Origin: Ricordea florida
Taxonomy: Eukaryota; Cnidaria; Anthozoa; Corallimorpharia; Ricordeidae
Reading direction: 5' to 3'
DNA: 64,000 bases
NCBI GenBank assembly: GCA_949710005.1
Contig: OX453274.1
Location: forward strand, 3,761,655-3,825,654
Numbering within the stretch: the first letter of the stretch is position 1; each line of letters begins with the position of its first letter. The position numbers and the translations under genes were made by a program. Of the stretch, positions 2,162 to 61,800 are shown in pieces. The notes under the pieces were generated by a model. That model had not been told where the DNA came from and ran no database searches. It was given only the letters and a program-made list of their open reading frames with translations.

Positions 2162-2509
2162 GTTTTTTCAACTTCCAAGCGCCACAGGAGGAACCTTTTG
2201 GGAAGAAAATTATCGAACATGGCGCACTACTTCAGAATTTCAAGCCGCGCCAAAATTTTTGAACAAGACTTCCCAGGGTACATTGAGGTTGTTTTGGGTT
2301 CCTCAAGACAGATGGGTAAAAACGAACATGGCGTCACTGTGCAGCTCTGTTGAGTTAGCAAAGACGCGACTGTATCGTAGGAACCTAGAATTAACCGAAA
2401 AAATTTCGTTTCATTGCCCTTTTTAGCATCTTATGAATGCATCTTATCGGCATGACGTAATGTGACAGATACTTCTTATTAGCGATACTTTTAGTCGTGA
2501 GTGAAGAAC
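2162..2509. promoter_or_regulatory. Shared intergenic region between divergent CENPI and TMCO3
   Basis: About 350 bp separates the two start codons, which point away from each other. No convincing TATA box was seen. The spacer must hold both transcription starts and 5' UTRs, so a bidirectional promoter is inferred. An 88-codon plus-strand ORF across it (2160-2426) starts on the complement of the CENP-I ATG and is treated as chance. Confidence 0.5.
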
Positions 2510-5500
2510 ATGGGTGTTTGCTGGAAATGTGGGATCGTGTTTTTAATTCTACGGGTTTGTCGTAGCGATCAGCCTATAAGCAACTTTGCTGCTGTGACGA
2601 AGGACGACTTTTCGCAGTGGAGTTCTTCTTCTTGCTTGTCTGCAAGCCGCGTCTTCAAAGCAAAGGCCAAAGTGTCTAATAAACTTAGCTATGTGCTTCA
2701 TTTACACACTCGGAAACAGCACTTATCTCCTGTTCAACTCAAAGCCATTAGAATTTTTCAAAGCGAGCTCAACGTAACGGAGCAAGCAGTATTCGATGCC
2801 TTAAATGGCCTACGAAAATTGCTTCAAGAGGACTACAAATCTGTCGTTCACATGAAGGAAGCGATTTGGCAACGACTGGAGTCATTAAAAGCTCTCACAC
2901 TGCAGCAAGAGGACCAATTTAATGCAATAAATGAAGCAGAGAAAGAGGTTTTAACAGCTCATAAACATGCCGATGGTACTGATAAGCAAAGCAATGTCAC
3001 GAGGATAGAGAAACTTATCGGAGGAGTGTTGGAAGACATTTCATTCGCTGCAGATCAATTGGAAGACGAGCTAGACGAGAAAACTTTCGAAAAGGGACGA
3101 ATGGCGAAAGGAGCTTCCATCGAAGCTGTTGTTCGCTTAAACGATGACGAAGAATCTTTAGGAGAGGAGAGTGAAAACAAGTCTTCCTTGATTGAAAACA
3201 AGGAAAAGAATGATATGAGTATACTTGTGGATTCACAAAACAATCAGTTTGTCCTGTCAAAAGCCAAAGATGCTACCGTCCCTCATGAGGATGTGCATTT
3301 TATCAAAGACATTATTTTAATTGTCCTTTTGTCATTTTTGGGAGCTTGTGTTTGCACAGTTGTCCATCTGCCCACAATGTTTGGGTTTGTTGTTGGTGGT
3401 ATGCTTTTGGGACCTTCAGGATTGAATATCATTAAGGTATAAAATTATAAGTTTACTATATAAATTTGTCATTTTCTTTGAATCTTGTGAAACAATGAAG
3501 ATGGTATGCAGTTTTTTGGAATGATTTCCTCACAGGTCGCTACTTTATTATGCTTGTGCGCATACAAACATTTGTGAGAACGAAACTGTATGGCTACAGC
3601 ATGCATAATGAAGTAGGAATGTAATTTTTGGCACTGTCACAAGAAAGCTTGGAAAAAGAAAATCCAATTTCTCCTTATAGGAGTTGAACCTACATGCACA
3701 CATGACTAGTTTGGACACCCTACCACTGAGCTGCATGTACAGCACTGATGGTATCCGGTCGATTAACCCCCAAGTCGATTAGCCCCCAGTAAGTCAATTA
3801 GCCCCCAAACTAGGCGTCAATTAGCCCCTAACATAGAGCTCTGTTCGACTTAGTAGATTACTCTTTCACTACAGGTTTCTCTTCGTTTTACTCATACATG
3901 GAATTGAAGGCACTAAGTTTAAGATCATTTGTTTGTTCCTTCGTTGAGGGTGACCAGTTTCCTTCCTTTACTCTCTATTTTTTCAAAATAAATAATAGCC
4001 ACAAATTTACAAGATACAGATCTAATAAATCAGATCAACTGATTTGTCTCGACCCCAATAGGCCACTATTTCATCAACATTAAAAAAATTTGATTTGTGG
4101 ACTATCCCAGGTTTGCTAGAATGCCCATGCAGTAAGTTAGATCGCAAGTGTGTTTGATAATAGATAAGTTATTTGACGGCTAATCGACTCTTAGTTTGGG
4201 GGCTAATGGACTTACTGGGGGCTAATTGATTTGGGGGGGACTTACTGGGGGCTAATTGATTTGGGGGCTAATCGACCTACAACTGTACCGATATTTGAGA
4301 CTCACATGAGAGCAAAGCCATTATTACATCTTTCACAAATTCTTCTGACTGAAAATATTTCATCTTCTTTATTTCACTATTTTTCAACCTTGTTTTAATT
4401 TATATAAAGTAAAACCTGAAGTAAGGTTAGATTTGAAGGACAATGTACATACAGTGAAAACTTTTACTCAGTTTAGGTCCAACTCAAAGAAATGGGGGCA
4501 TTTTACACTATGCCAGGTAAACTTCGGAATACCTGTAGATTTGCTGTATATTCATGACGCTGAGTGAAAAAAGGGTGTAATGTTTTCCATTGTATTCTAT
4601 AAAGGATGCTGAAAAACATGAGCAATGGTGACCAGAAGTGGACAAGAATATTAATTTTTTCAAATGCACCAAACAAATCAGCTCGTTTAAATGGTCTATC
4701 ATTTTACTTCCAAGCTATATGAACAAAGTGAGGCATTGTTATTATCATTTGTATCTATTTGATACTTTCCTCTGTCTGTTTTCAGTCTGTTGTTCAAGTG
4801 GAAACACTGGGAGAGTTTGGTGTGTTCTTTATCCTTTTTGCAGTTGGGCTGGAATTCTCTCCAGATAGAATAAAGAAGGTAATGGACAGTTGTTTAAGTC
4901 TATGCAAGAGTCAGTAATATCATGTTATTATACAGTCTGTGTATATTTACCCATGTGTGCGTTATTGAGCAAGCCTGAGGTCAAGATGGCTGCATGTTGG
5001 CCAAGTTCGTTTTTGTATTTTATTAACTGCAACTATATCTTGGTCAATATTATGCACGTATCAATGTAAACCCCGTGGGGGGGGGAGTGCGGGCAAGGGG
5101 TGGGGATTTGACCAAGGAATCCATCTCCTCAGTGGGAGGTTTGATCGAGTACCTTTGCTCGGGGGTCGGGACATTTGATTTGTTCGGCAGAGAGACTGGG
5201 GCCAAGACAAAGCGTGGTTACCTGGCATCGTCTTTCTTGTCTTTGGAATGACGTGGGTTTTGGAGAAGGTGAGTTTTTTACCGATATTTATATGCTACTT
5301 CATAGGCCATCTAAGTCACAAGTTATTAAAGGTATGTCCAGAGCTTGTCTTTTATTTGGTACTTTGCCCCTGGGTGGGGATTTTGACTACATTTGATGAA
5401 CATATGCTGCCCCACCCTTGGGCAATTGACCAGAATTTTTGCTCCTTGGTCAAATCCCCACCCCTTGCCCGCACTCCCCCCCCCCCCCCCCCACAGGGTT

Positions 5501-22200: not shown

Positions 22201-25200
22201 TGTGCACGTTATATCTGGGGGGTACTCTGATGGATATAAGGGACTAGTGACTGTTCCAACTGAGCCACTTAACTGCAGGTTTTGGTTGTTGACATTGCCA
22301 AGGAGGCACTCATGATCTGAGGTAACTGCCACAAGGTAATAACAGCACAATTTGGTTGAGTTGATAAAAATAATAAAGATAATAATGAAGTCAGATCTCA
22401 TCTTGTAGCGGTCATGCAATAGTCTATTATACAAACTTCAATGGAATACCACACCATTTGACTTAAATGTTAATTATAAATATGGTGTGATTATTTACTA
22501 TGATACCAGATTGAAAATAACATTGTCTAAGTGTGTATGTGTGTTGGGGGTGGGGGGTTAGATTTGTTTTTATACAGAAAATCTGCAAGCAAGCAACAAA
22601 TTCTATAAACCGGTTCAAGGTATTTTGGTAAAGATTGAAGAAAAAAAAGGTTGAACATGACTCACTTCCTTCAACAGCACTAAAATGTGCTTTGAATCCT
22701 GATCTGAGTTTAGCAGAGTAGCCAGCATAAAACTTGACTCTAATTTCATTTGAGGCACTGGATGTTAAAATAGGCGGCAATGAAGTACCACAGTAGGTGC
22801 CAAGACTCTTGGCATGAGCATAGGATCCATCAAAGATCTCTACATAAGAATCGTGACAAGGTGAAGGACTAGAAGACACATCAAATGCTTCAAACTGCAG
22901 CCGTACTTTGTTTCTTGAGGGGACAGCAATAACCCAGTCGCAAGACATTCCATCAACACTAACTGGATAGTTTGGTGTGAAAAGTGTTCCAGAAGGGCTA
23001 TCAATCCTCAGATTGTTGTTGTCATAATATGCCTTGCTTGGACTGCATATACCAGATGCCTTGGCTGAAGTAATAATAATAATAATAATATTACAAAGTG
23101 AAAGATTAAGGAGCTGTTATTAATGAAGAGTTACATTTAATAACAAACAATGATATCAAAAGAGTAATCAGTAGGTAATCAATGGTTCATCAGTTTAGTC
23201 GTTGTTGATATCCAATAATCAATGAGAAATAAATGGATAATCGATAGGCCACAAAATTTCCAAATAAACATACCTTGCATGTTCAATTCTTCTTTGCCAA
23301 TTATGATCAACAAGAACCATTAATTTCTATTAGAGGAAGTAAACTATCAATCTATAGTAGAGAAATTGCTAAGAAACATAGGAGTGTAATCAATATTGAA
23401 GTAAATAGAAAATCAATGGATAATTGAAATGTAATCGACAGGCCATAAAATTTAAGACCTTGATTACCCCTTGATTATTGCGAATAATCAATGACTAATT
23501 AGTTGATTACTTAATGATTATCTATTAATTACTCCTTGATGTCATCTATTGATTCATTCAATTTGGAATTAACAAATATTACAATGAGAGAGGCCGCAGT
23601 GGAGCCAAATTTTAACTACAGACCAATGTGATTACAAAAAACAACAGCTCCATTAGACCTGGACAGGTTTAATTAAGAACAGATACTTGTCATGAACAGA
23701 GCAAAATCACTGCATATATGAACAGAAAAGCAATAAAAAAAATACGAAGGCATTTACAACCGTGTCCAGGGTCAAAAAAAGAAAATGTATGAAAATCAAT
23801 AAGATGCTGATTGCAAGCCATGCCTGTCTTGTAATAGGAAGGTTGTAATGTACCTGGTGATGGATGCATGACAATTGGTGCATTTCTTTGGTGTGATCTG
23901 GATCTGGTTTGTGATCTGACATCACTGCACATCAAGGGAAACCAATAAATCCACTTTGGACAAGGATCCATTGGTTCATTTGATGTGCCAAAATCTGAGT
24001 GATCTCAGATCACAAAACCAGATCTGGATTACACGAGTGACGATGTCAGAGATGTCAAGGTGGATCTCGCCTTTAAGCCAATGGTACAAGAAAATAAGGT
24101 ACAGGTATTCAAGAGAGTATGATAGAGGGCCAAGTTTAAGCTGGAGAAGGAAATGATTGAAGTCCACCTCCAGTGCACATAAGATATAGCATCCTTTGAA
24201 CTCGGCCTCTAGGCTGCGCATAAGAAGTAAGGAGTCTAGCTGAGGTGCCCACACTTGACTTGTGTAGATGCGGTGATACCTTACCAGAGATATAGAGTGT
24301 CTTCGTGATGTTGTGAGGCAGGCCATTGAAGCACTGTCTTTGTAGGAAACCATTGCAAGCATTTTATTGGCCTAAGCAACTATGCTTTTGATATGCTTGC
24401 CCCATGATAGGTCACAAGACACTTTAATTCCAAGGTTAATTACCTTCAGGGACTGCAGAATAGGAGAGTTTAAAATGCCTGTTGATTCCATAAAAATTAC
24501 TGCGGCTTATAAACTTGATATGCAAAGTACCAGTGACTCCAGTAGCATACAGCACTTCAGGATGGTTTATACCACAGAACTTTCCAATAGATTCAGAGAA
24601 TTCTGATGAACCATCATAAAATGACAGTGAATCTTCATTGCACTGACTGCCATTCTGCAAAAAAAACTCATTGAAGACCAGTTTTACCACATGGTCTCTA
24701 TAATTTGTTGTTTTGATAGTCCAAGAGCAAGATTCTCCGCTGCTGTAACTCAATGGATAACCTGGACTCTCTAAAGTTTGGTTGTAGTAGTAAGAAGCTT
24801 CAAGTACTTTCTGTCCCACATAAGAACAATCTAGAGAAAAATATAAGGTGAACAGATTCAGGGCTTGACACTAAATTTTTACACCACTTTCCACTTTGGA
24901 AAGTAGACTTCAAATTTTACTTTCCATCTCAAAATTTTACTATCCAAAATGGATTACAGTTTCATGGTTGCTAACCATACCATATGTGTTTATAGTACCC
25001 AGACCTCCTCGGGAGTTCTCTTGATCCAATATGGCGGAGAATGGACCGGAGAATGCGAGAATGTTGTAAATTTGTCTTTTTAAGACGAGTAGCCATTGTC
25101 ATATGGTTCTTTGTATCATTTTCTTAAAATTTTACGCACTTTTTTTCACTCAAGCCTTTTAAGCATAAAATTTACTTTCCATTGAAGCCCAAAATTTACT

Positions 25201-26736: not shown

Positions 26737-27905
26737 CAGCAATTAAAAAATTATAAACTTGACAATAAAATCTAACTATGCAAGTACAGCAGTGACCTGT
26801 GAGCTGTGTTCGCTGTTTTGCTTCGAGACACTCGCCCAAGGTTTTTCCGTATGTTTATGGGTGAATAGGCCTGGAGACAAGAAAAGAGAAAAATAGGTCT
26901 GCGTTTCGTTGAGAATTTCTTGCGCAGGCGTCAAGTGGGGTTGTCTGGCACCCAGCATATCAGGTATCTTGCAGACGTTGTTATGCGATTTCTTTTCAGC
27001 ACTAACGAAATCCTCCAAAGGCTCCATGGAGCTACCACATGGATGATATTTAAGAAAGATGGCTTGTGAGATTGGGTTATTTGCCAGAAATAGAGGTACC
27101 AGATTTTTTCCAAAGTTGACCTTGTTGCAAAAAATATTGATAGCACCAGGCTCCTGTTAGCACAACATATCTGTATCAATACAGCCAAGACAGAGAAACG
27201 CAGCTTTTCCTAACATTTCCAAGTGATCACAAAGTCTGGCTTTCACTCATAGTATTCTCCACTGCCTACGTACGTACCCGCTTCCCTGTTTGGATCTAGA
27301 TCTAGAGGGGTTTCAGTTAGACTAGGATTGGTTTTTGTATTTGTATTTTATTTTTACTCCATCCTATAATATATTAGTTGTAAAATAATACATTAGTTGT
27401 ACAATATCATTGGTACAAAGTTGCTTCAGTGAACTACGTGTACATAATAATAATAATAATAATAAAAGAAAAAATTAGAATGGAGAAGGGCACATTATAG
27501 TGAAACTAATCAAAACAATACCTGAAATTGAATGAAATGATTTTCGGAAGTGAAAAATTCCCTGCCAGTAGTCGCTTGCTCACCATGCTGAAAACCCATT
27601 CAATTAGCCTATTCAACGGGATGCTTGCATGGTAAAGTAGAGATACCAAATTTAAAATGGAGAAAATTGATAACTTAGAAATTATATACCAGGATATAAA
27701 GAGTGGTTTTGCGGACGATTTACTGAAAAGAGCGCAGTCGAAAATTGTCTCGTTCAGGCAGTCACTTGTACATCAGAGTTCTAGTTGACTAATTCAGTCC
27801 GTTGTAAATGAGAATCGTGGAGAAGGGCTCTGATCATACGCAACATACGCGGATAGAAGTCTGGGGAAAAGTGAACTCAAAGTGAAAGGGAAAATGTGAA
27901 CGGTC
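26737..27905. promoter_or_regulatory. Spacer between divergent CUB and DGAT2-like genes
   Basis: 1.17 kb separates the two start codons. It holds the unrecognised open segment above, an AT-rich stretch with an (AAT)n run at 27447-27470, and a 43-codon plus-strand ORF at 27656-27787 (starting MEKIDNLEIIYQDIKSGF) which may be an upstream ORF or an exon of unknown origin. No TATA box was identified. Confidence 0.35.
26776..27153 (-). CDS. Unrecognised 125-codon open segment
   Basis: From a good acceptor (CTAACAG at 27154) the minus strand is open for 125 codons to TAG at 26776. It reads NKVNFGKNLVPLFLANNPIS, then EPLEDFVSAEKKSHNNVCKI and a Ser/Thr/Gln-rich end. It stops 40 bp before the CUB-gene ATG on the same strand. 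It may be a terminal exon of a small gene, a 5' exon remnant or chance. No family recognised. Confidence 0.25.
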   Translation of the reverse strand, partial: EPGAINIFCNKVNFGKNLVPLFLANNPISQAIFLKYHPCGSSMEPLEDFVSAEKKSHNNVCKIPDMLGARQPHLTPAQEILNETQTYFSLFLSPGLFTHKHTEKPWASVSKQNSEHSSQVTAVLA

Positions 27906-30900
27906 ATGGAAGTTTACAAATCTAATGGTTCCCTAACGCGCCGCTTGCTTCAAGGAGCAAGTGTCGTGACGTTCTACCTTATCCTTTCAACTGGATCGCT
28001 ATTTGTTTTCGGAGCCCTAGTTTTTTATGGAATTTACTGTTGTTGTCATTTCTTGTGGCCTGTTCCTTTTCTCTACCTGGCTTGGATGTACTGTCTTGAC
28101 TTGAAGACATTTAACCGCGGTGGAAGAAGATCAGAATTTATTCGAAGGAGTGCTTTCTTCAGATGCATGCGCGATTACTTCCCGGTGAGTCTGGTAAAGA
28201 CAGGGGAGCTCGATCCTAGTAGAAACTACATATTTGGTTATCACCCTCACGGTATTTTCCCAGAAGGGCTAGCAGTCAGTTTTGGTTCCGAAGCTCTCCA
28301 GTTTAGTGAAATATTTCCAGGAATTGTACCATATCTCGGCGTCCATTCCTGTAAGTATTTAGATCGCTCGTGGAATCTGTGTGTCTGTCGTGTTTGGCAT
28401 ATGTACGTACGGTTTGCGTAGCATTATGCATATTTTGTGCGATATTTACAGAGAAATTTTGGTTACACCCACAATTTCATTGTTTGGTGTTTTTTTTTTC
28501 CTCAAAGACCTTTTTTTTCTTAATAAAGTAGCGTAGCCAGAGCTATGAAATACTGCGATCGTTGTAGGAAATTCAATTCTACCACTGCGTGTTGCGTGTT
28601 GCCTAAGAAAAAGGCCGTGCAATCGGAATAAATGACATAGATACTTGTACGTGTTGAATCTCATAATTGAGAAGCGCAGATATTACCAACAAACATTATA
28701 TCTCGAACTGCCACCGTTGAATACCATGCTGCATTATGTTACAAGAGTTAGTTGATCTCTGACACAGCACGGCGCGGCACAGCACAAGGCCGTGAATCAA
28801 GTCTCCCCACAAAGGTAACAGCCAGTGATTACAGCATCGCAAAATAAATACTAGTTTTTTCTTAGTTTTATTCTGTTTTTTTTTTGTTTTGTATTTTTTC
28901 CCTTTTATTTTTTTTTAAATTTTCTTTTATCTGTTTAGTTTTATTTTCAAACTGTAATTATTTTTCAAAAAAAAATAAAATAAAAAACAATTAAAAAAAT
29001 TATTTAGAAATTAAAAAAACTTCGCACGTCACCATCATAAGCCCACAGAGACCATAGCCCATCGAAATGGCGACGAGAGTCAGAAATAGCGATTGGCAAG
29101 AAGGTCAGAATTTGAGGGATGATTTGATCAAATATGTGAAGCAAGATTTACCCTGAAAGGAGATCTTAGTTCAAATCAGGTATCCTATGTATGCATGGAG
29201 CCATCGTACTATCACTCGTCGACTCCAATATTTCAGCATCCAGTTTACGGATTATATTGTGGATGTTGACGATGTACGCGAAGCCCGGGGGGTACTTGGG
29301 TTAATGTTTGCTGGGTATGTGCCGCTGGCCTCTCAGAGCCCCCAACCCATTTTAGTCTATTTTTTGGCCAATTATAGACCCCATCTTAGTCACTTTTTGG
29401 AAAATGTAATTTTTGGGATCCCAACTTAGTCACTTTGTATTTATGCATCTACCTTGTCAATCCTTTAAAAAGCCGGGTCATCCAAAAATGAACTGACACA
29501 ATTTTTTAAAGTGAATAAAGAACACTTTACTTTCACCTAAATAAACAACTTTCTGATCTTTTTAACCGAGAATCTTCCCATTTTGATTCCCTATTTACCC
29601 CCAAAATTCGAACAGTTGCAACCCCATTCTAGTAACTCTATTGAAAATGTGACCCCATTATAGTCACTGCAGTTATGAAAATGCGACCCCATCCAGCGGC
29701 ACATCCCCATTAGGCTCCTGTAAGGGAGTACCCCCCCCCCCCCCGGGTCGCGAAGCTGTCTAGTCGAGAAAGAAATGAACGGTCCTGGCAGTCTACTTGG
29801 CTACAGAGCTTTGCATATGTCACACCGTCGATTCGGGGCATCTAGCCTTGCAGTACCAGGTTCGATAAATCTGATGTGAAGCAATTTCCAATTCTTTATT
29901 TGGCTTGTGTCGGTCTGAGATGGTCCCCTCTCCCCAGCAAGCAAATTACACAACATATCGGTAAGCTGGAAGTGTTTTTTGCATGCTTCTTTAATATTTT
30001 GGAGCGTTGCTTCGCGGTCGAGGGGAACCATGGTCAGTGCACCGATATGTGAATATTTTTGGCGTTTGCCTTCAACAGATGAGGACAGGCGTTGCACTGT
30101 TAGAAATTCAAATCCAGTTGACTCTGTTTTGCTGTTCCCTGCTCTTTTCTTGCACACTGTCGCTCTTAACGCATCCCATTCCTGGTTTTTCCGCTTTGCT
30201 ATTTCGTAAAATCACTGATAGTGTTTGGCAAATGGCATAAACACAATCACTATCGCAGAATGCATTGGGGATATCTAAAGTTGAAATGCCTGATGGGCTA
30301 TGGCCTCTGTGTGCGAAATGTTTTTTTTAAATTTCTAAATAATTTTTTTTAGATTTTTATTTATTTATTATTGTTTTTTGTTTGAAAAATAATTACAGTT
30401 TGAAAATAAAACTAAATAGATAAAAGAAAATTAAAAAAAAATTAAAGGGAAAAAAAACAGAATAAAACTAAGAAAAAACTATATAAAAAACTTTATGGCC
30501 CTAATGGGCCACCATACACCTGCAAGCCAAGTGGCTTTTTACAGCCCTTTTCATGTCTTGACATGCTGCCCTCATGCAGGGATTTTTTTTATATTTGTCT
30601 TTAATAGAAATGTGCATGTGTTCTGTATGATAAACATAGCATTTAGAGCAGTGGCACTGCATCGGTATCGTAGAGGTCATGGGTTCGAATACTGTTCAGG
30701 CCTGAATTTCTTTTTTCAGGCTTTAATTTCACAGCTGCTTAAGTTGTGTACATAACTGCGATGATCAATCAATGTCATTGCATATTACTCCGCAGTTCAA
30801 ATATATGGTCTTTCATATATTCACTTGCATGGCATTTTTATGCTATTTGCATAACTCACTGGCTGGCTGAATTTTAACTTCTTTCAACAGTCATTGGATG

Positions 30901-32313
30901 GTCTCCCATTTTACGAGATATTGCCATGGCTCTTGGAGCTGTGAATGTCAATCAGGAAAGCTGCAAATTCGTGTTGAGTCATAATGGGCCTGGCCACTCC
31001 ATTGCTATTGTTGTAGGAGGTGCATCAGAAGTTCTGAATACCTATTCAAACATGTATGTGCTAACACTCAAAAGAAGAAGAGGCTTTGTCAAGCTGGCAC
31101 TTGAGACTGGGTACATAATATGATAGATACTGCTTGATTTCCATATATGGCCCCATACTTTATTATGTATGCTGTAGTTGTATACTGTTTCATTTTTGGA
31201 AAACAAGAAATGTTTGCACATCGGAAACTTTTACTATTGTAACAGTAACTATATTGTGCCCTTTTAACCTTTTGCCATCCCATTTATTGTCAATCTGTAG
31301 ATCTCCACTAGTTCCTGTGTTTGGATTTGGACAAAATGAGGTTTTTCTACAGCCTAGAATTGACATCCTTAGTAGTTACAACCCTGGTCGCTCCAAGTGG
31401 GAGAAATGGTCCAAAATTTTTCTGAAGGGTTGTATTCAAGTGCTGTTTGCACGGTTTGGAATAATGCCACATGCTAGACCTATCACAGTTGTAGGTGAGT
31501 GGTATTTACTCGTACATTCTTGGATTTACAAAGAGATTGAAACCCCACCCTTGCAAAATTAGGTTTAATATGACTAGAATATAATAGACTGATACTGTCT
31601 GATATGCCACCCCCTGAAATAAGGTGCCTCTCTCTTATAAGCCACCCCTGTCTGGAAGAGAAAGTTTATTAACCCACCTCCCTCCCAGAAGAAAAACCAA
31701 ATACCGTACATGGGAAAAGTAACTTTTATGAATAATTTATTCACATCCGAGCATTTCAGTGTGTGATGTTATTGCACCATGGGTAGGCTGACCTCTCCTG
31801 TTGGTTTATGTAGTCATTTGTATTTTCAGAGTTTTGCAGTTATAGCAGTGCACAAATGAGTATGAGGAAATTCTTGAATCTGCAGAAAATAGAGATCTTT
31901 AATTAAGCTCATATTGTTTGCAGTTAGTTAAATCAATAAGGCAACTTCTTTTATTAAGCATCCCTCTCTGATAAGCCACTTGGGTGGATAAGTAGAGGAT
32001 AAACGATACCTTCTACATTCTATGTTACTCCATAATGTAAAGTATTTATAAAGAGATTTTGCAGTTTGGATCCCACCCCTTTGTAATTGCCAGTTTAGCA
32101 TCACACTTTCCTTTCCTTCAGAATAATACCCTCCAAAATTTTCTTGTTTGCTTTTCAGTCGGAAAGCCCATCCCTGTGGAAAAAGTAGAAAACCCCACAG
32201 AAGAGCAAGTTAATAATCTCCAATCTACCTACATCACCAAAGTAACAGAACTGTTTCAAGAACATAGGGAAGCCTGTGGTATTCACAAGGATGCACAACT
32301 TATTATACAGTAA
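27906..32313 (+). CDS. DGAT2/MOGAT family acyltransferase, 4 exons, 337 aa
   Basis: Transfers an acyl group from acyl-CoA to mono- or diacylglycerol in triglyceride synthesis at the ER membrane. Exons: 27906-28350, 30891-31110, 31301-31494, 32159-32313, with phases 1, 2, 1 agreeing. Hydrophobic segments at about 20-62 form the membrane hairpin. DYFPVSLVKTGELDPSRNYI leads to the catalytic HPHG at 113-116 (YHPHG as in DGAT2; MOGAT2 has FHPHG). Further signatures are IVVGGASEVL, RGFVKLALETG, LVPVFGFGQNEVF and RPITVVVGKPI. Length matches MOGAT1/2 (about 335) better than DGAT2 (388), which has a longer N terminus. Substrate preference cannot be set from sequence alone. Intron 1 holds the composite element at 28850-30490. 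Confidence 0.9.
29067..29816 (+). pseudogene. Broken N-terminal part of an integrase-type transposon protein
   Basis: From the ATG at 29067: WQEGQNLRDDLIKYVKQDLP, a stop codon, PMYAWSHRTITRRLQYF, FTDYIVDVDDVREA; then a 464-bp insert; then, shifted by one frame, GPGSLLGYRALH at about 29781-29816. From memory this order (ordered motifs, then GPG-LLGYRALH) matches the N-terminal part of an integrase-core protein family frequent in coral and fish genomes. The catalytic core is absent. Damage: one in-frame stop, one frameshift, one MITE insertion, 3' loss. Confidence 0.6.
29285..29748. repeat. 464-bp MITE inserted in the integrase-like ORF, 8-bp target duplication
   Basis: CGCGAAGC occurs at 29277-29284 and 29749-29756, flanking CCGGGGGGTAC... 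and ...GTACCCCCC-run-CCCGGGT. Subterminal TATGTGCCGCTGG and CCAGCGGCACAT are inverted. The body repeats phrases like CCCCATTATAGTCACT. An 8-bp duplication suggests a hAT-type transposase. A related element lies at 63615-64000. Confidence 0.85.
29801..30157 (-). pseudogene. Protein remnant of an unclassified coral gene family inside the composite element
   Basis: The minus strand is open for 118 codons and reads LDREATLQNIKEACKKHFQL, LLAGERGPSQTDTSQI and KLLHIRFIEPGT. A similar AGERGPSW...HIRF pattern is familiar to me from multi-copy coral genes, but I cannot name the domain. No clear start or downstream exon; likely captured or left behind by rearrangement. It overlaps the pseudogene at 29067 by a few bases on the opposite strand. 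Confidence 0.4.
30640..30835 (+). repeat. tRNA-derived SINE
   Basis: Head: GGTCATGGGTTCGAATACTG (B box), GTTCAGGCCTGAATTTC; body: TTTCACAGCTGCTTAAGTTG, ATTACTCCGCAGTTCAAATA. Same family as 25590-25735 and 38320-38410. It ends about 50 bp before exon 2 of the DGAT2-like gene. Confidence 0.8.
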
Positions 32314-54612: not shown

Positions 54613-55227
54613 AGGATAAGCAAGCCTTCCTCCCTCTGAGCCGTGGTATTGTTTGTTTTACTGTATGCTCTTTTCTTTTGCTTAGAACGTTCCATCCGTT
54701 TGCTCTATTTTAGCCTGAAAACGTCCAGGAAGTTAAAAAAACATGTCACCCTTAGTATTTAGATTAATTGTTGCTAACTTCTTATAAAACGTTTGTGTGA
54801 ACAGTGAAGAGTGTTGTGAGATTTTGGGCTAAATCAGATCGCGTTCCCGATCACATTCCCGCTATAACGGCAGACTGCCCAATACCTCCTTTTCAATCTG
54901 CTCCGCTGTGGAAGGATTCTGGGTATCATCTTGTGAGACTGCTGGCCATCAAAGGGCGCCTCTTGGCGTTATACACGCATGTCGGTGTGCTCAGCTAAAG
55001 GGGAACGCAAACGCTGGCTCGATGATGTCAGTCGCAAGCAAGTTGTCAAGACTTAAGGGAAGTAACAACGTTTTTGGACAGGATTGCTTGCTTCCCACTT
55101 GAGCAATAGGGAACGGCATATGGCATACAGTCAAAGAGAATTCTGAGCTGCACTGTAAAAGCTGATGATCGGGAGGAAGGAGGGTAGGGGGTGGGGCGAG
55201 ATGAATGGAGGCTGTAGAGGAACAAAC

Positions 55228-55335
55228 TCGCTCCCAGGGCTTTTCCCTAGAAAGAAAAATGGCGGACGGGAAAAGGCCTGGCCTTTTCCTATTTGCCATT
55301 TTTATTTCCAGGGAAAAGCCCTGGGAAAGAGGTTG
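55228..55335. repeat. Palindromic MITE
   Basis: CTCCCAGGGCTTTTCCCT and AAAAATGGC are mirrored by GCCATTTTT and AGGGAAAAGCCCTGGGA; about 105 bp. Confidence 0.8.
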
Positions 55336-56245
55336 GTATTAAAATAATCGGGTGTTCATTATTCCTCGCGAAGCGAGGCCGAAGGCCGAGCGTAGCGAGG
55401 TTACTAATCGTGTCGGTTCCGGTCAGACCACGTGGCTCGCAAGCCCGAGTAAATCGAGCCGAGAGTTTTTATATATGTATATATATATATATCTATATTT
55501 TAAGTAATGGTCCAGCTAAGAGGTAGGCAGGCCAACGGCAAAAGTCATTAAAAGGTGCGAACTATTAATTTTTAATTTCGATTAAATCTAGACATCTGAT
55601 TGGGTGATATCGAAAAAACGCGAAAAAATCAAAGAAAAAAAGTCAAAAAAACGCATTTTTTTGTATGTTTCCTTTCCAAGCCCCTATTTTCCGTCTCTCG
55701 GCCACGTTTGGCCATTGTTCTATGCGCCAATCAAAAGTTAGAGCCGAGAAGATGCTGCAACACGCACGACGCCATATTGGAAGTGAGAAGTGAGAGATTT
55801 TTTCGTGGAGTTCTTTACGGAAATAGTTATTTTATATCCATCAAATTTTATATATCAGAGTTTATCCAAGTTTACGTATACTATTTACAGCAGTTTTTAC
55901 GTTCTATCGTTCGCTAAATGCCTTTCAAGAAGCTTTGTTGTTGCCCGCAACACGCGGAATGATGTCACGGAGATCCAGGCGTGAAACAGATGTTTAACGC
56001 CACTTACGCGGAGGAAAAGTTGTGTGGTACAGGGAAATGGAGTTCTTCTGGGCACGAATAACGGAAAAGGAAGATCTGGACTTTCTGCCGGGTAAGAATG
56101 CGCGGCTTTAAAAAAATGCGAAACACTCGAGGTGAGATACGCTTTATTTCATAATACTTGTGAGGTTCTGCTCCATATGAGGGTCACGTATTCAAGTGTT
56201 TCTTCTGAATTATATAAATAGCCATCGAAATGTTTTATTTTGTAG

Positions 56246-56603
56246 GCTAGAATTGATGCACGAGAAGAGGATCGACAAATATGCGATGATTTCGGCCTTG
56301 ATCTACATGTAGAAGTAGAAACAGATGATGAATTGTATGTTGATGCAACAGTGCTTTCTCAGGACGTACCATGCCAATTTCCAATTATTTTTCTATTCTG
56401 GGAGAACCATTTTCCTAATGTGTGACAGAAATGAGAACTTATACTTTGTGGATTCTCATTGTCATAAAGACAGAGGTGCCCTAATTGCAAGTGTAGGAAA
56501 GGGAAATGAACAGGCATTTGCAGATTGGATTGACAAAATGATGACTTTCAACTGGAACTGTCCCCTAAATATCAGATCAGTAACTGAGGTTGTCTATGCC
56601 TGA
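56246..56603 (+). pseudogene. Frameshifted ORF with a FVDSHCHKDRGAL motif
   Basis: After an acceptor (TTTTATTTTGTAG) one frame reads ARIDAREEDRQICDDFGLDL to a stop at 56425. The next frame continues RTIFLMCDRNENLYFVDSHC, HKDRGALIASVGKGNEQAF and stops at 56603. The order (hydrophobic strand, then Tyr/Phe-Val/Phe-Asp-Ser-His-x-x-x-x-x-Gly) resembles OTU/C76-like cysteine-peptidase domains that occur in mobile-element proteins, recalled from memory. A +1 shift separates the halves, so it is probably dead. Confidence 0.4.
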
Positions 56604-57875
56604 AATAAAGATAGAGATAAATAGTATTTGGAGAATGATGCTGATTGAGGTCGGAGGGTGTTATTCACCAAAGCAGACAAAGCTATCCCTGATCTTCATA
56701 TCACACTGAAGCGGAATCTTGTAATATTGGTTTGTTCTTCATTCAAATTATTTTCAAGAAAATTAACAAGTCTATTCAAGCCAGTCAGGAACAGAAAAAT
56801 CTTTCGGCTGGTTAATCAGGCTTTTCTAAGTCATGTTTTCTGTTTTCTAATACAGCTATTAGTAAATAAGAGTTGTGGCTGCTCTAATTGGGCTTTGTAG
56901 TAAAGTAACTTAGCAAAGATTATATATTTTCCTATCAGTGTTTCTCAGAAAATAAATAGTTGTTTTACATGTCCACAAGGTTAAATTAAGAATTGTTGCC
57001 ACTCTCAGTAGGGCTTTTTTGTGAAGTAGCTCTTAAGAGTGATACACTTTCCCTTAAAAATGTTGTTTTAGATTTAGAGAAACAACATACCTTTTTTAAT
57101 GTCAAAATATAAAACTGAAGGGCTAGCTGCACTGAAAAGAGCATTTTTTGGTGAAGTAACTGAATTGATATATTTTTACATCACAATGTGTACAGCTTCT
57201 CAAAATGGGTAAGGCTTTTCACATGTGTACATGATGGAAGTGGCTTTGAAAAGACGTTTTGTTTCTAAATATAGGTGAAACTTGGGATAATTTTCAGGTA
57301 GGTCTTCTTAAAAGAAAAGAAAGCAGCATTTTCCACATTGATGGGATAAGCATGGACCATCTTTTTACCCTTGTTGATAAAGACTGAGCTATTTCATCTC
57401 CGATTATGAAAAAAAAATGGCTTTGGGGGCTAATGAAGTATTGTTTGCACAAAAATGCTTTCTATGTTGAATCCCTCATTTCTTCCATACCCGTCCTATG
57501 CATACTACCCCATACAGTTAGACGATTACAATTGACCACAACAGAAACTACCATAGTGCGCTTTGTTGGTCACGCCAAAATTTTGCATAATAATTTTTTT
57601 CAGTTTCTCTTGAGGCCATTTTATCTCCAAAGTTTATGCAAATTTCCGGAGTGATCAATATTATAGAACGTTTTCAGCCCACCCCACCCCATTCAATCTA
57701 AATTTGGATCATGATTTTCATAAGGGCAAAAGACATTTATTTCCAGCAACTTTACATCTATAAAGCTACGTTATAATGTTGAACAACGAAAGAAAACATC
57801 GATACAACCGGAACTAAACTTGATTTGAGTCTTAAAAACATGTCAAACAGACTCTACATGAGTACTGTTATATTT

Positions 57876-58373
57876 TTAGAAGTGGATGTGTCGGATCATA
57901 CAAGCCAAAACGAAAGGAATTTGGTTGTATGTACATCCTTCACTGGCTTCCTTAACTTTGCCAAGGCGGTCATGAGTGAGCAATAATTGCTTTAACCGAG
58001 AAAACAAGTCCTTGGTCACATTCAGGAGTTCTGCTATGTGTTCAGGATCGACATTCCTCCCAGCAGCGAACGCATCGATTGTATAAACTTCAGCTGTAGC
58101 CCTTTGAACTCTCAGTTCGCGGGATATTGCGTCAAAATCTTTGCCCTTTGAAAATGGGTCCAGAGCCCTCAACTTGTTAGAAAGGTCGTTTTGGTAAGAT
58201 TTCCGCACAGGTCCCTACTTCATTATGCATGCTGTAGTTGAATTGTCTTGGGAAGTGCGCGTGCAAATATTTCTGAGAACGAAACCGTACGGCTACAGCA
58301 TGCACAATGAAGTAGGGACCTTTGAGGAAACCTTACCGTCGTTTTTCCCGTACAGTCTTAGGAGACGATTTTT
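57876..58373 (-). pseudogene. Helix-turn-helix-like ORF split by a MITE
   Basis: Minus strand from an acceptor at 58374 (TTTTTACACAG): a short open run ending CTAAGACTGTACGGGAAAAA, then the 145-bp MITE, then an open frame with DLSNKLRALDPFSKGKDF, DAISRELRVQRATAEVYTID and LLNVTKDLFSRLKQLLL, to a stop at 57876. Removing the insert and one target copy leaves the two parts in one frame. The middle resembles the C-terminal helix-turn-helix of RecQ-type helicases, but the helicase core is absent here. Function in the transposon unknown. Confidence 0.5.
58193..58337. repeat. 145-bp hAT-type MITE with 8-bp target duplication
   Basis: GTCGTTTT flanks both sides (58185-58192, 58338-58345). The ends are GGTAAGATTTCC and GGAAACCTTACC, followed by AGGTCCCTACTTCATTATGC and its inverse. 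Same family as 3520-3630. An 8-bp duplication is typical of hAT transposases. Confidence 0.88.
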
Positions 58374-58851
58374 CTGTGTAAAAAGCGTTATTAGAAGAAG
58401 ACATTCTAGATGCTAAGACGAACCAACCACCGCAGCAAACAAAAGACAACTCGAAGATCACGACAACCATTTGACTGCGACAGGTCTGCACTGGATCACA
58501 ATCGTGACAGCTGATGCGGTATTCTTTGATGGCTACGTCGCGTCAGGCATCCTCCTGCGTTCTGTAGGTCGTAATTTGAATTCCTCGCTAAATGGCGCAT
58601 ACAAACTCCAAAATTTTTACGTCTTAAGTTTTTTAAATAGCCTATGATTTTACTAGCGGAATAAAAAATTGTTTTTTTAGGAGGAAAATCTGTGAACTTT
58701 TCGAATGAAATTCAAATTTCGCGCTTTTCGCTGCATTGACCAATTAGAGCATTCAGATTTAATTTGATTAAGGAAATTAGTCCCTCAAGAATAACTGACG
58801 CTATTGCCGCGGCCTATTGTTTTTCTGCCTGCTTCTTAGCTGGACCATTAC

Positions 58852-61800
58852 TTAAAGGTGTCCGTTCGCAGGCCAGGTTACCTGGCAATTTTAACGCACT
58901 TGAGAACTGCTGAATTTCCGCCATTATTCGGTGATGCCTTTTTGAAAGTAATGTAAATTTTGTGGAAATCGATTTCACTCGTCCTGGAAGTACATCCCAG
59001 CAAGGTGATCTCCGAGATATTCAAGAAATATGAGCACAAGATCGTCGCCGAGTAAGTTCGAATATCGTGAAAATCAACACGGGGAAAGCACGACTCAAAG
59101 CCGGGATAGAGAAACGACAGCAGGGAGAATAACAACAGCCAAGACAACAACTGATCGCTCCAGAAAAAGGCAAACGAAACAGCAGGGAAAAGGACTAGGA
59201 ATTCAATCAAGTTAGTTTTGAATTTGAATGTGTTATTGATAGAAATACAGGACATGAGTGAACGATTACATAACGAAATATATTGGCGTAGTACATTTAG
59301 CAAAACGACTTAGAAGGGACACCGAGTAAGAACGACTTCAACGATTGGAGATATCTCTGGAAAATAATTCTATTAGTCTAAAAACGGAATCGGAAGATGA
59401 CCAACAGATTACAAGAGAATGTAAATAGGTATTTTTCATAATAAAACGATAGCGTTTCCAGTTTGAAGTAATTCCCAACACAGAGAGTTGCAGTTGTTAT
59501 AGCAATCATTTATAACGATGTGATCTGATATCATTGCAACAGTGAAAATATTGTAAATTTTCTTGATCTGGCAGTTCTGTTAAACATTTTCAACAGAATA
59601 TATACCCTGTGTCACTATAAAGTACTGGTTCTGCAATATTATCAGTGATCAATGCGATCATTTCAAAATAAAGCAAATGTGATTACTGAATTCTGAGTAG
59701 TATTTCTCTTTGCTCTATATATATGTATGTATTCTCTGATTGAAAGGTTTCAATAATATTGCGTAGAGACAACAAGTTTCATAGCCTTTTCACAATGGGT
59801 CAGTTTTACCTTAGAGTGCAATGAACCCCCCTCCCCTGATAATATTGCTATCTAGAACCCCTGCCCTTTTTTCACAAATGAAATGTTAATTCAAGCCTTA
59901 ATTTGAAAAGTTAGACATAACATATTAACTTTGTTACTTTCTGCTGTTTACTTTATTTTTATGATGTCAAATATCAATATTTCATAACAACCACAACATG
60001 CAATTAACCTTTTACATTGGAAAAACTTTATAAAGAAGAAAATAAATTTTGTAATGCCAAAATGTTTATGATCTTTCTCATATATTCATTGCAAGTGTGC
60101 TGTATGTAGTAACAAGTGTTTCAAGTTTCCTAAATGCCCTATGCTTTCAATGATTTTCCACACAAACTGTATAGACAAATGACTGCACTAGATTCTAAGC
60201 CTTAAAGAAGAAATGGTATTCTTTGGTGCTGTTTTGATTACTACCACCTCTGATGGAAAGTCTATTAAGAAGATTTTTGTATTGCTTGTAGTAGTAGAGT
60301 AACAATATCTTTACCAAGATTAGGACATGCATCCCACCCCATAAAAATATATTATGTTTAACGTAAAAAATATAACAATAATAATATCAATACCAGTAAT
60401 AATAACAGTAATGATAATAATAATGATAATAATATAATGATAGTGCTTCTCGTTACCATATGTCATTGGTTACAAGTTCAATACCTTTGCCTGCCATGAC
60501 TTTTTCGATGAAATACCATGCGTATATTAAATCTTTCTTCTGTAGTTTTTATAATAGAAATTTTCATATATTCAAAATAATGTACTATTCTCTGTTTGGT
60601 TATGGATATTTTGCCTGTTTCTGTAACAGCACAATTAAACTTTCATGTGGTATACAGTTTTGACTGATTGATGTTGATTTCACATTATTTTTTTACAGGA
60701 CTATGTAGTGCAGCAATAATTATCAACATATTGAGATTTCAGTAACTCTTTCTTACATGTATTGATTTTATGAGATGACCTAAAAATAGCACGACCACAT
60801 ACTATACAGTCGGCACACACTATTACTAAACCTTTATTTAAACTTTTTGTAGAATCCAATTGTTTTACCCCCAATTTTTATTTTATGTAATGACATTGTA
60901 TCTCACACTTCTGTTGATATGGCATCACTGGGGGTACTACTGCAACTGAAGAGAGTACATAAATTGAAACATGCACTATTCATAATGCTCTCAATTGTGG
61001 TTACCTAGGAATGAAATAATGACTGCAGTAGACAATAATATATCTAGTCAGAAGATTCTTCTTACAATGAATCTCATGCAATTATAAGCAAAAAACATAA
61101 ACAAAAAATAATTGGAGCATTTAACTCATCCTCGGTGTAAGAACATATTGTGTTTAAAAGGGATGTACAACAAAGAAGACAAAGCAGTAGACTCAGACTA
61201 AGAAAATAAAACTAAAAAAAACACAGGTTTTTACACCGTGGTAAACACAAGCATTCATATCAACTATTCAAGATTTCCCCTGCAAAAGATTTACAATCAT
61301 TTTCAATTTGTGGTAAGTGAATATTATTGTGATACCTCATCGACTCTGTATTCCCTGTCAAGATAATAAATAATTTTACTTCTATTCCCTCTGGTGCAAT
61401 CTCAGTGGCAGTGAAAGAGCTAAATGAAGGTCAATTTTTAAACACTGTGTTGACCGGTATACTGATCATGTAATTTGCACCAATAAAATAAAATATAAAA
61501 GCATTGTGACTTCTTCAAAAACTAGCTTCGCGAGGTTTTTGCGGGAGTCGTATTTCTAGTTTTAATATTCCTGTTCGGAAATTTTCGTTTTTCCAAAATT
61601 TTAAGATGGAAGACAGTGTAACTGTTATTCATTATTCTAAAATCGACAAATCAGTCGTTTCAAAGGAAGTCGTTATTTCGTTATTCTGTCCCGGAAAATA
61701 GACATTATGCCATTATTCCATTATTCCACAATTAGATTTCCGTTATTCGTATTCTATTATTCCTCTCCTCCGCACGAAAACGACTCAAGAATTTAATTAC

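Follow-up and report, generated by a model that had tools for sequence, protein, structure and literature searches.

The question raised by this locus is which kind of transposon is inserted at TTAA, has perfect inverted ends and carries a peptidase-like and a helix-turn-helix-like ORF, which a sequence-only reading had taken to stand there rather than a transposase. The window (the whole 64-kb stretch of DNA analysed) lies in contig C3 of the 537.8-Mb, 48-contig genome of Ricordea florida; the element occupies positions 55504–58851 (3,348 bp) and is flanked by TTAA, its inverted ends being perfect over 18 bp.

Ends, genomic copies and coding remnants of the element

The inverted ends (left, GTAATGGTCCAGCTAAGA..., 55504–55530, plus strand; right, 58825–58851, minus strand) are 25/27 identical, the outer 18 bp being perfect, and are flanked by the TTAA target-site duplication (TSD) at 55500–55503 and 58852–58855. 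A search of the window with the 19-bp end sequence (up to 3 mismatches) gave two matches, both of them the element ends (chance mean 0.04). The genome search with the element returned nine near-full rows and many partial rows; ten full-length copies with both ends present (L001–L008, L011 and L012) were read, L012 being split over two rows because of an insertion. TTAA was found on both sides of all ten; the incomplete or chimeric copies (L009, L010, L013, L014, L015, L017) gave seven ends, six of them with TTAA, the exception being one end of L009. A repeat at L009 joins the flanks on the left and right of the element in the window with a single TTAA (84% over 257 bp) and is a related empty site. 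The TSD is assigned from the copies and from this empty site; together with the ends, they bear out the 3.35-kb TTAA transposon with perfect 18-bp ends that had been proposed. Pairwise difference among seven full-length copies was 0.18–0.60%, the other three differing from these by 2.1–2.7%; the damaged form itself has multiplied recently, the copies presumably being moved in trans.

Two convergent ORFs, with the FVDSHCHKDRGAL quoted earlier, are present in the window. The plus strand holds a decayed exon 1 of a transposase-like gene (MPFKKLCCCPQHAE..., 55918–56103; two in-frame stops), which aligns over 62 residues with no gaps to its counterpart in the family C element described below; what may be a coding remnant in a different frame, preceded by a possible splice acceptor (ARIDAREEDRQICDD..., 56246–56422; open frame only); and, by similarity to family C, the C-terminal part of a VTD-like peptidase domain with the stop of the gene (56376–56603). 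Asp-Ser-His of the peptidase piece is at 56451–56459; the catalytic-Cys part of the domain is absent. In the peptidase-like ORF, a transposase-like gene has its 3' end, now broken; exon 1 of this gene is still present, and the ORF does not replace a transposase as had been supposed. The last exon of an HTH_40 gene (57876–58192, minus strand; Pfam HTH_40) is convergent to the transposase-like gene. Matches to the HTH ORF (genome search with the L015 ORF) and to the peptidase end (51–53%) were obtained in 10/10 full-length copies, and the pair is convergent in diverged families also, in agreement with the earlier assignment of both ORFs to the element. Ends, exon 1, peptidase-domain end and HTH exon are kept in the window copy; DDE-like region, peptidase Cys part and F-box region are lost. 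The window element is a non-autonomous internal-deletion derivative.

The HTH exon is interrupted by a nested 145-bp foldback MITE (58193–58337; 45-nt arms, 91% complementary) between two copies of an 8-bp duplication, GTCGTTTT (58185–58192 and 58338–58345). The MITE is exactly absent from the same place in L015, the HTH ORF of which has 125 codons, and many further copies of the repeat occur in the genome. The earlier description of the element was right on its ends and had overlooked this insertion in the HTH ORF. Relatives of the MITE were noted in the window at 3514–3617 and 31136–31202. Other features recorded were: a 113-bp inverted repeat just left of the element (55223–55335; 56-nt arms, 84% complementary, 1 nt between); host-like ORFs at 2501–3442, 22463–23116 and 27900–28421 (in this order, one with no Pfam match, one with a CUB domain and one for a diacylglycerol acyltransferase, DAGAT); and a piece of a DDE_Tnp_4 transposase (5.9e-17) at L014:6287–6613, beyond a diverged copy of the left end.

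HTH_40 was the leading Pfam match of the minus-strand ORFs: 22.7 bits in the window (under the cut-off of 27), 29.5 in MITE-free L015, 34.9 in family C and 48.7 in family B; the HTH_40 exon lies in open frames of up to 211 codons. A Pfam scan detected no helicase domain in the exons scanned (ORFs of the element and of families B and C, family C exon 4 excepted). With this ORF an HTH_40 exon and helicase domains lacking from the exons scanned, the RecQ-C-terminal-like fold suggested previously for this ORF is not supported.

Larger and smaller relatives

Family B comprises four copies (L034–L037); in their right part, along about 2,685 bp, three of them show 99.70–99.78% identity with the first. 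It has the same convergent gene pair as the window element; the right end, ...CGAACCATTAC followed by TTAA, shows the same terminal motif in 4/4, and the left end, read in one copy, is TTAA followed by GTAATGGTTCGCG. The family C element (C15:11361106–11370820, 9,715 bp) has TTAA at both ends and termini GTAATGGTCCGCGCAAGAACTAGGCAG and GTAATGGTCCGTGTAAGAACTAGGCAG; in a further copy on C4 (99.7% over 1,731 bp) the right end is the same and the flanking DNA is different. At its left end, family C can be aligned to the window element over about 480 bp, and the end motif GTAATGG is common to the window element and its larger relatives. Given such relatives, the window element looks, as had been suggested, to be derived from a larger one in which the set of genes is unusual.

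The main gene of family C was assembled from six conceptual exons (L039 940–1152, 1267–2406, 3158–3562, 3680–3827, 4391–4608 and 4982–6649) to 1,264 codons with no stop; introns are GT-AG with consistent phases, splice sites being placed by eye. The protein is Cys-rich at its N-terminus and has DDE-like motifs, and its last exon encodes a peptidase domain at the C-terminus; this exon was found open at 100% identity (rounded) in six places and at 96% with two stops in a seventh. Motif DYKMK was invariant in the 4 sequences compared and DNGxHYHN...NFEAGEGK..LDxHF in the 7 compared; by motif reading, DYKMK and DNGxHYHN seem to hold the first two catalytic aspartates of a DDE/D transposase, the third acid not being placed. 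No significant profile was obtained for the DDE-like exons in Pfam, NCBIfam and PHROGs, and PDB matches were chance-level only (exon 4 alone excepted); the designation as a DDE transposase rests on motif reading for that reason. A linked DDE transposase or helicase had been named as something to look for in longer copies: a DDE-like multi-exon gene (motifs only) is present in family C, a helicase was not found in the family C exons scanned (exon 4 excepted).

The end pattern TTAAGTAATGGTCC occurs 520 + 524 times in the whole genome, versus 1 + 3 for the reversed pattern, and among the first 100 places listed there are many facing pairs about 280–300 bp apart. Four short elements were read: two consist of the left 238 bp and the right 52 bp of family C, the other two are closest to the ends of the window family; a fifth element, of 3.0 kb, has family C-like ends. 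Since the short and 3.0-kb elements share these ends, elements of 9.7 kb, 3 kb and ~0.3 kb all use a single type of end; the ~290-bp MITEs are, to judge from their composition, end-to-end deletions.

The genome search with the L015 HTH ORF gave 48 matches, which are element copies and diverged relatives at 31–46% identity. Non-element places among them, with fragments of one locus counted once and the element-like fragment C12:18393020 left out, amount to 27 diverged HTH loci, which are not independent because several copies of the same families are included. A DDE-like exon is convergent within 12 kb at 21/27 of these loci (6/27 have none nearby); conversely, 21 of 33 DDE-like loci are paired with HTH and 12 are not. 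At 16/27 loci, the 5 kb around the HTH gene include an F-box/LRR-like ORF in divergent orientation, and at 17/33 DDE-like loci such an ORF lies on the same strand within 12 kb. Pfam scores of these ORFs were all below cut-off: F-box-like, 22.4 and 20.5 bits (cut-off 24.3); LRR_4, 19.0 (cut-off 27); a third ORF gave LRR matches only, also below cut-off. The F-box genome search (98 matches, the window element not among them) was hand-merged to 74 places, from which an expectation of about 0.001 per 10 kb follows; most of these places are away from HTH loci, where another mobile family may carry F-box/LRR-like ORFs.

The C-terminal peptidase domain

Alignment A1 was composed of 15 genomic domains (L039 and 14 of 20 fetched loci) and the window piece; L065, L068, L072 and L073 were left out, and L059 and L067 were removed as near-duplicates. 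The conserved residues of the domain are Q, Cys and Asp-x-His: D155 is invariant in A1, and Q15, C27 and H157 are nearly so, L066 having Tyr in place of His. The window piece is 51% identical to family C in A1 and 53% over residues 500–571 in the genome search; the same domain occurs at 26–33% identity in other repeated ORFs of the genome. The A1 profile gave no convincing Pfam family. Against PDB its sole match below 0.01 was the pair 8ADB/8ADC (bacterial Wc-VTD, ubiquitin-bound and apo), a weak one (E = 0.0016; i-Evalue of the main domain 0.024), placed around Asp-x-His and, marginally, Cys; the Helitron VTD 8ADD and herpesviral 2J7Q were not among the PDB matches of this profile. On this similarity the domain can be interpreted as a putative VTD-type deubiquitinase. 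The earlier hint at C76, the herpes tegument peptidase, was a good one, because the profile of intact domains matches a VTD deubiquitinase, if weakly.

VTD domains are described in transposons, cnidarian ones included (PMC9741609); in corals and sea anemones they are fused to other regions, some of them transposon-associated (Erven et al. 2022, PMC9741609). The same source proposes that VTD deubiquitinases have spread via transposons, one having reached herpesviruses from a Helitron, and among the transposon hosts that it details are Helitrons/Helentrons (PMC9741609). The elements reported here share with VTD-bearing Helentrons, as described there, a transposon-encoded cysteine peptidase domain with an Asp-x-His motif (PMC9741609); they differ in that they are TTAA inverted-repeat elements and not rolling-circle ones, the domain forms the C-terminal end of a DDE-like protein, and HTH_40 and F-box-like genes go with it.

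VTD-like domains were also observed in other repeated ORFs (L058, L059, L060, L061, L066, L072). In L060, L061, L066 and L072 the domain comes after ...ESIFSvLK..sgGNLSA, a stretch that on inspection by eye resembles the end of a different type of DDE transposase. In the near-identical repeated ORFs of L062, L064, L065 and L067 it follows a CCHC zinc-knuckle-like stretch, and here another type of mobile element may use it. At L010:1837–5285, Helitron-like ORFs (DUF6570 match) with their own FYSHSRD peptidase-like stretch adjoin a partial copy of the element.

Placement among TTAA transposons and proposed mechanism

Termini are GT..AC in families A, B and C, which agrees with neither piggyBac nor Kolobok. 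An element derived from piggyBac that had captured host genes would share the TTAA target, and TTAA-flanked, piggyBac-like MITEs (CMITEs) are described in Acropora corals (PMC2872659); those, however, have CCC ends and about 100 bp (PMC2872659), the ends here are not CC(C/T)T.. or CC(C/T)..GG, and no piggyBac domain of Pfam was found in the family C exons scanned (exon 4 excepted), which makes such an origin highly improbable. Equally improbable is a MITE-like element that has captured fragments of host genes coding for the peptidase and HTH ORFs: both ORFs are decayed in the window copy, as such capture would have it, but the convergent pair is found again in diverged families that share the end motif, and this recurring gene order contradicts a capture.

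Membership in Kolobok, a TTAA-using DDE superfamily, with accessory proteins as in the RecQ-bearing KolobokH, is rather doubtful, though better founded. It would account for the TTAA target seen at 10/10 full-length copies and at the empty site; Kolobok lineages are described with varied accessory proteins and with cnidarians among their hosts, and Kolobok-1_CCri has its RecQ gene on the complementary strand (PMC9587614), so that the TTAA TSD, an accessory gene on that strand in one member and the diversity of accessory proteins are points of likeness. Against this, Kolobok termini are given as 5'-RR..YY-3' (PMC9587614), those of Xenopus being described as AG, whereas GT..AC is found here; HTH_40 leads the minus-strand ORFs with no helicase family in the exons scanned; no THAP was found in the family C exons scanned (exon 4 excepted); and the LD(T/S)HFAH stretch is, by eye, without C/DxxH at that place. 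Kolobok is compared here by its published description (PMC9587614). AcademH was considered because of the RecQ hint, being a eukaryotic DNA transposon that carries a helicase, and was rejected: its TSDs are 9 or 10 bp (PMC10045372), versus 4-bp TTAA here.

The inverted repeats and TSD of the present elements also led to rejection of a Helentron/Helitron, which is not known to have either at its ends; the helicase of a RepHel protein was not found in the family C exons scanned (exon 4 excepted). Sola3 has a TTAA preference and a Sola transposase. Assignment to it, or to another described superfamily that uses TTAA, is a tentative option; a 4-bp TSD would agree with it, as would a DD(D/E)-like core of unfamiliar type. 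A separate, undescribed TTAA DDE lineage, possibly a superfamily, may be proposed with equal reserve; in it a built-in deubiquitinase would shield the transposase, an F-box protein would turn SCF on host factors and HTH_40 would handle the ends. Literature searches, restricted to open-licence papers, gave no DDE-like transposon that uses TTAA and combines VTD with HTH_40 and F-box-like genes.

Whichever the superfamily, the window element is very probably an internally deleted, non-autonomous member of a TTAA cut-and-paste-type system, larger relatives of which carry a transposase-like/VTD-like gene, HTH_40 and often an F-box-like gene. The multi-exon gene would encode the transposase (DDE by motif only), which would recognise the GTAATGGTCC ends in trans and move copies of the window type and ~290-bp MITEs into TTAA. 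Its C-terminal domain, as a putative VTD-type deubiquitinase, may shield it from degradation; a similar protective role is proposed for Helitron VTDs (PMC9741609). The HTH_40 protein would bind element DNA, and the F-box-like protein could redirect a host ubiquitin ligase.

The window copy itself makes a modest point, as a dead derivative presumably moved in trans. The transposase-like protein that ends in a VTD-like domain, the exon for which is found in six places at 100% (rounded), offers a concrete system for the question why transposons keep deubiquitinases, and with the F-box-like gene alongside it, transposon control of ubiquitin would become open to test.
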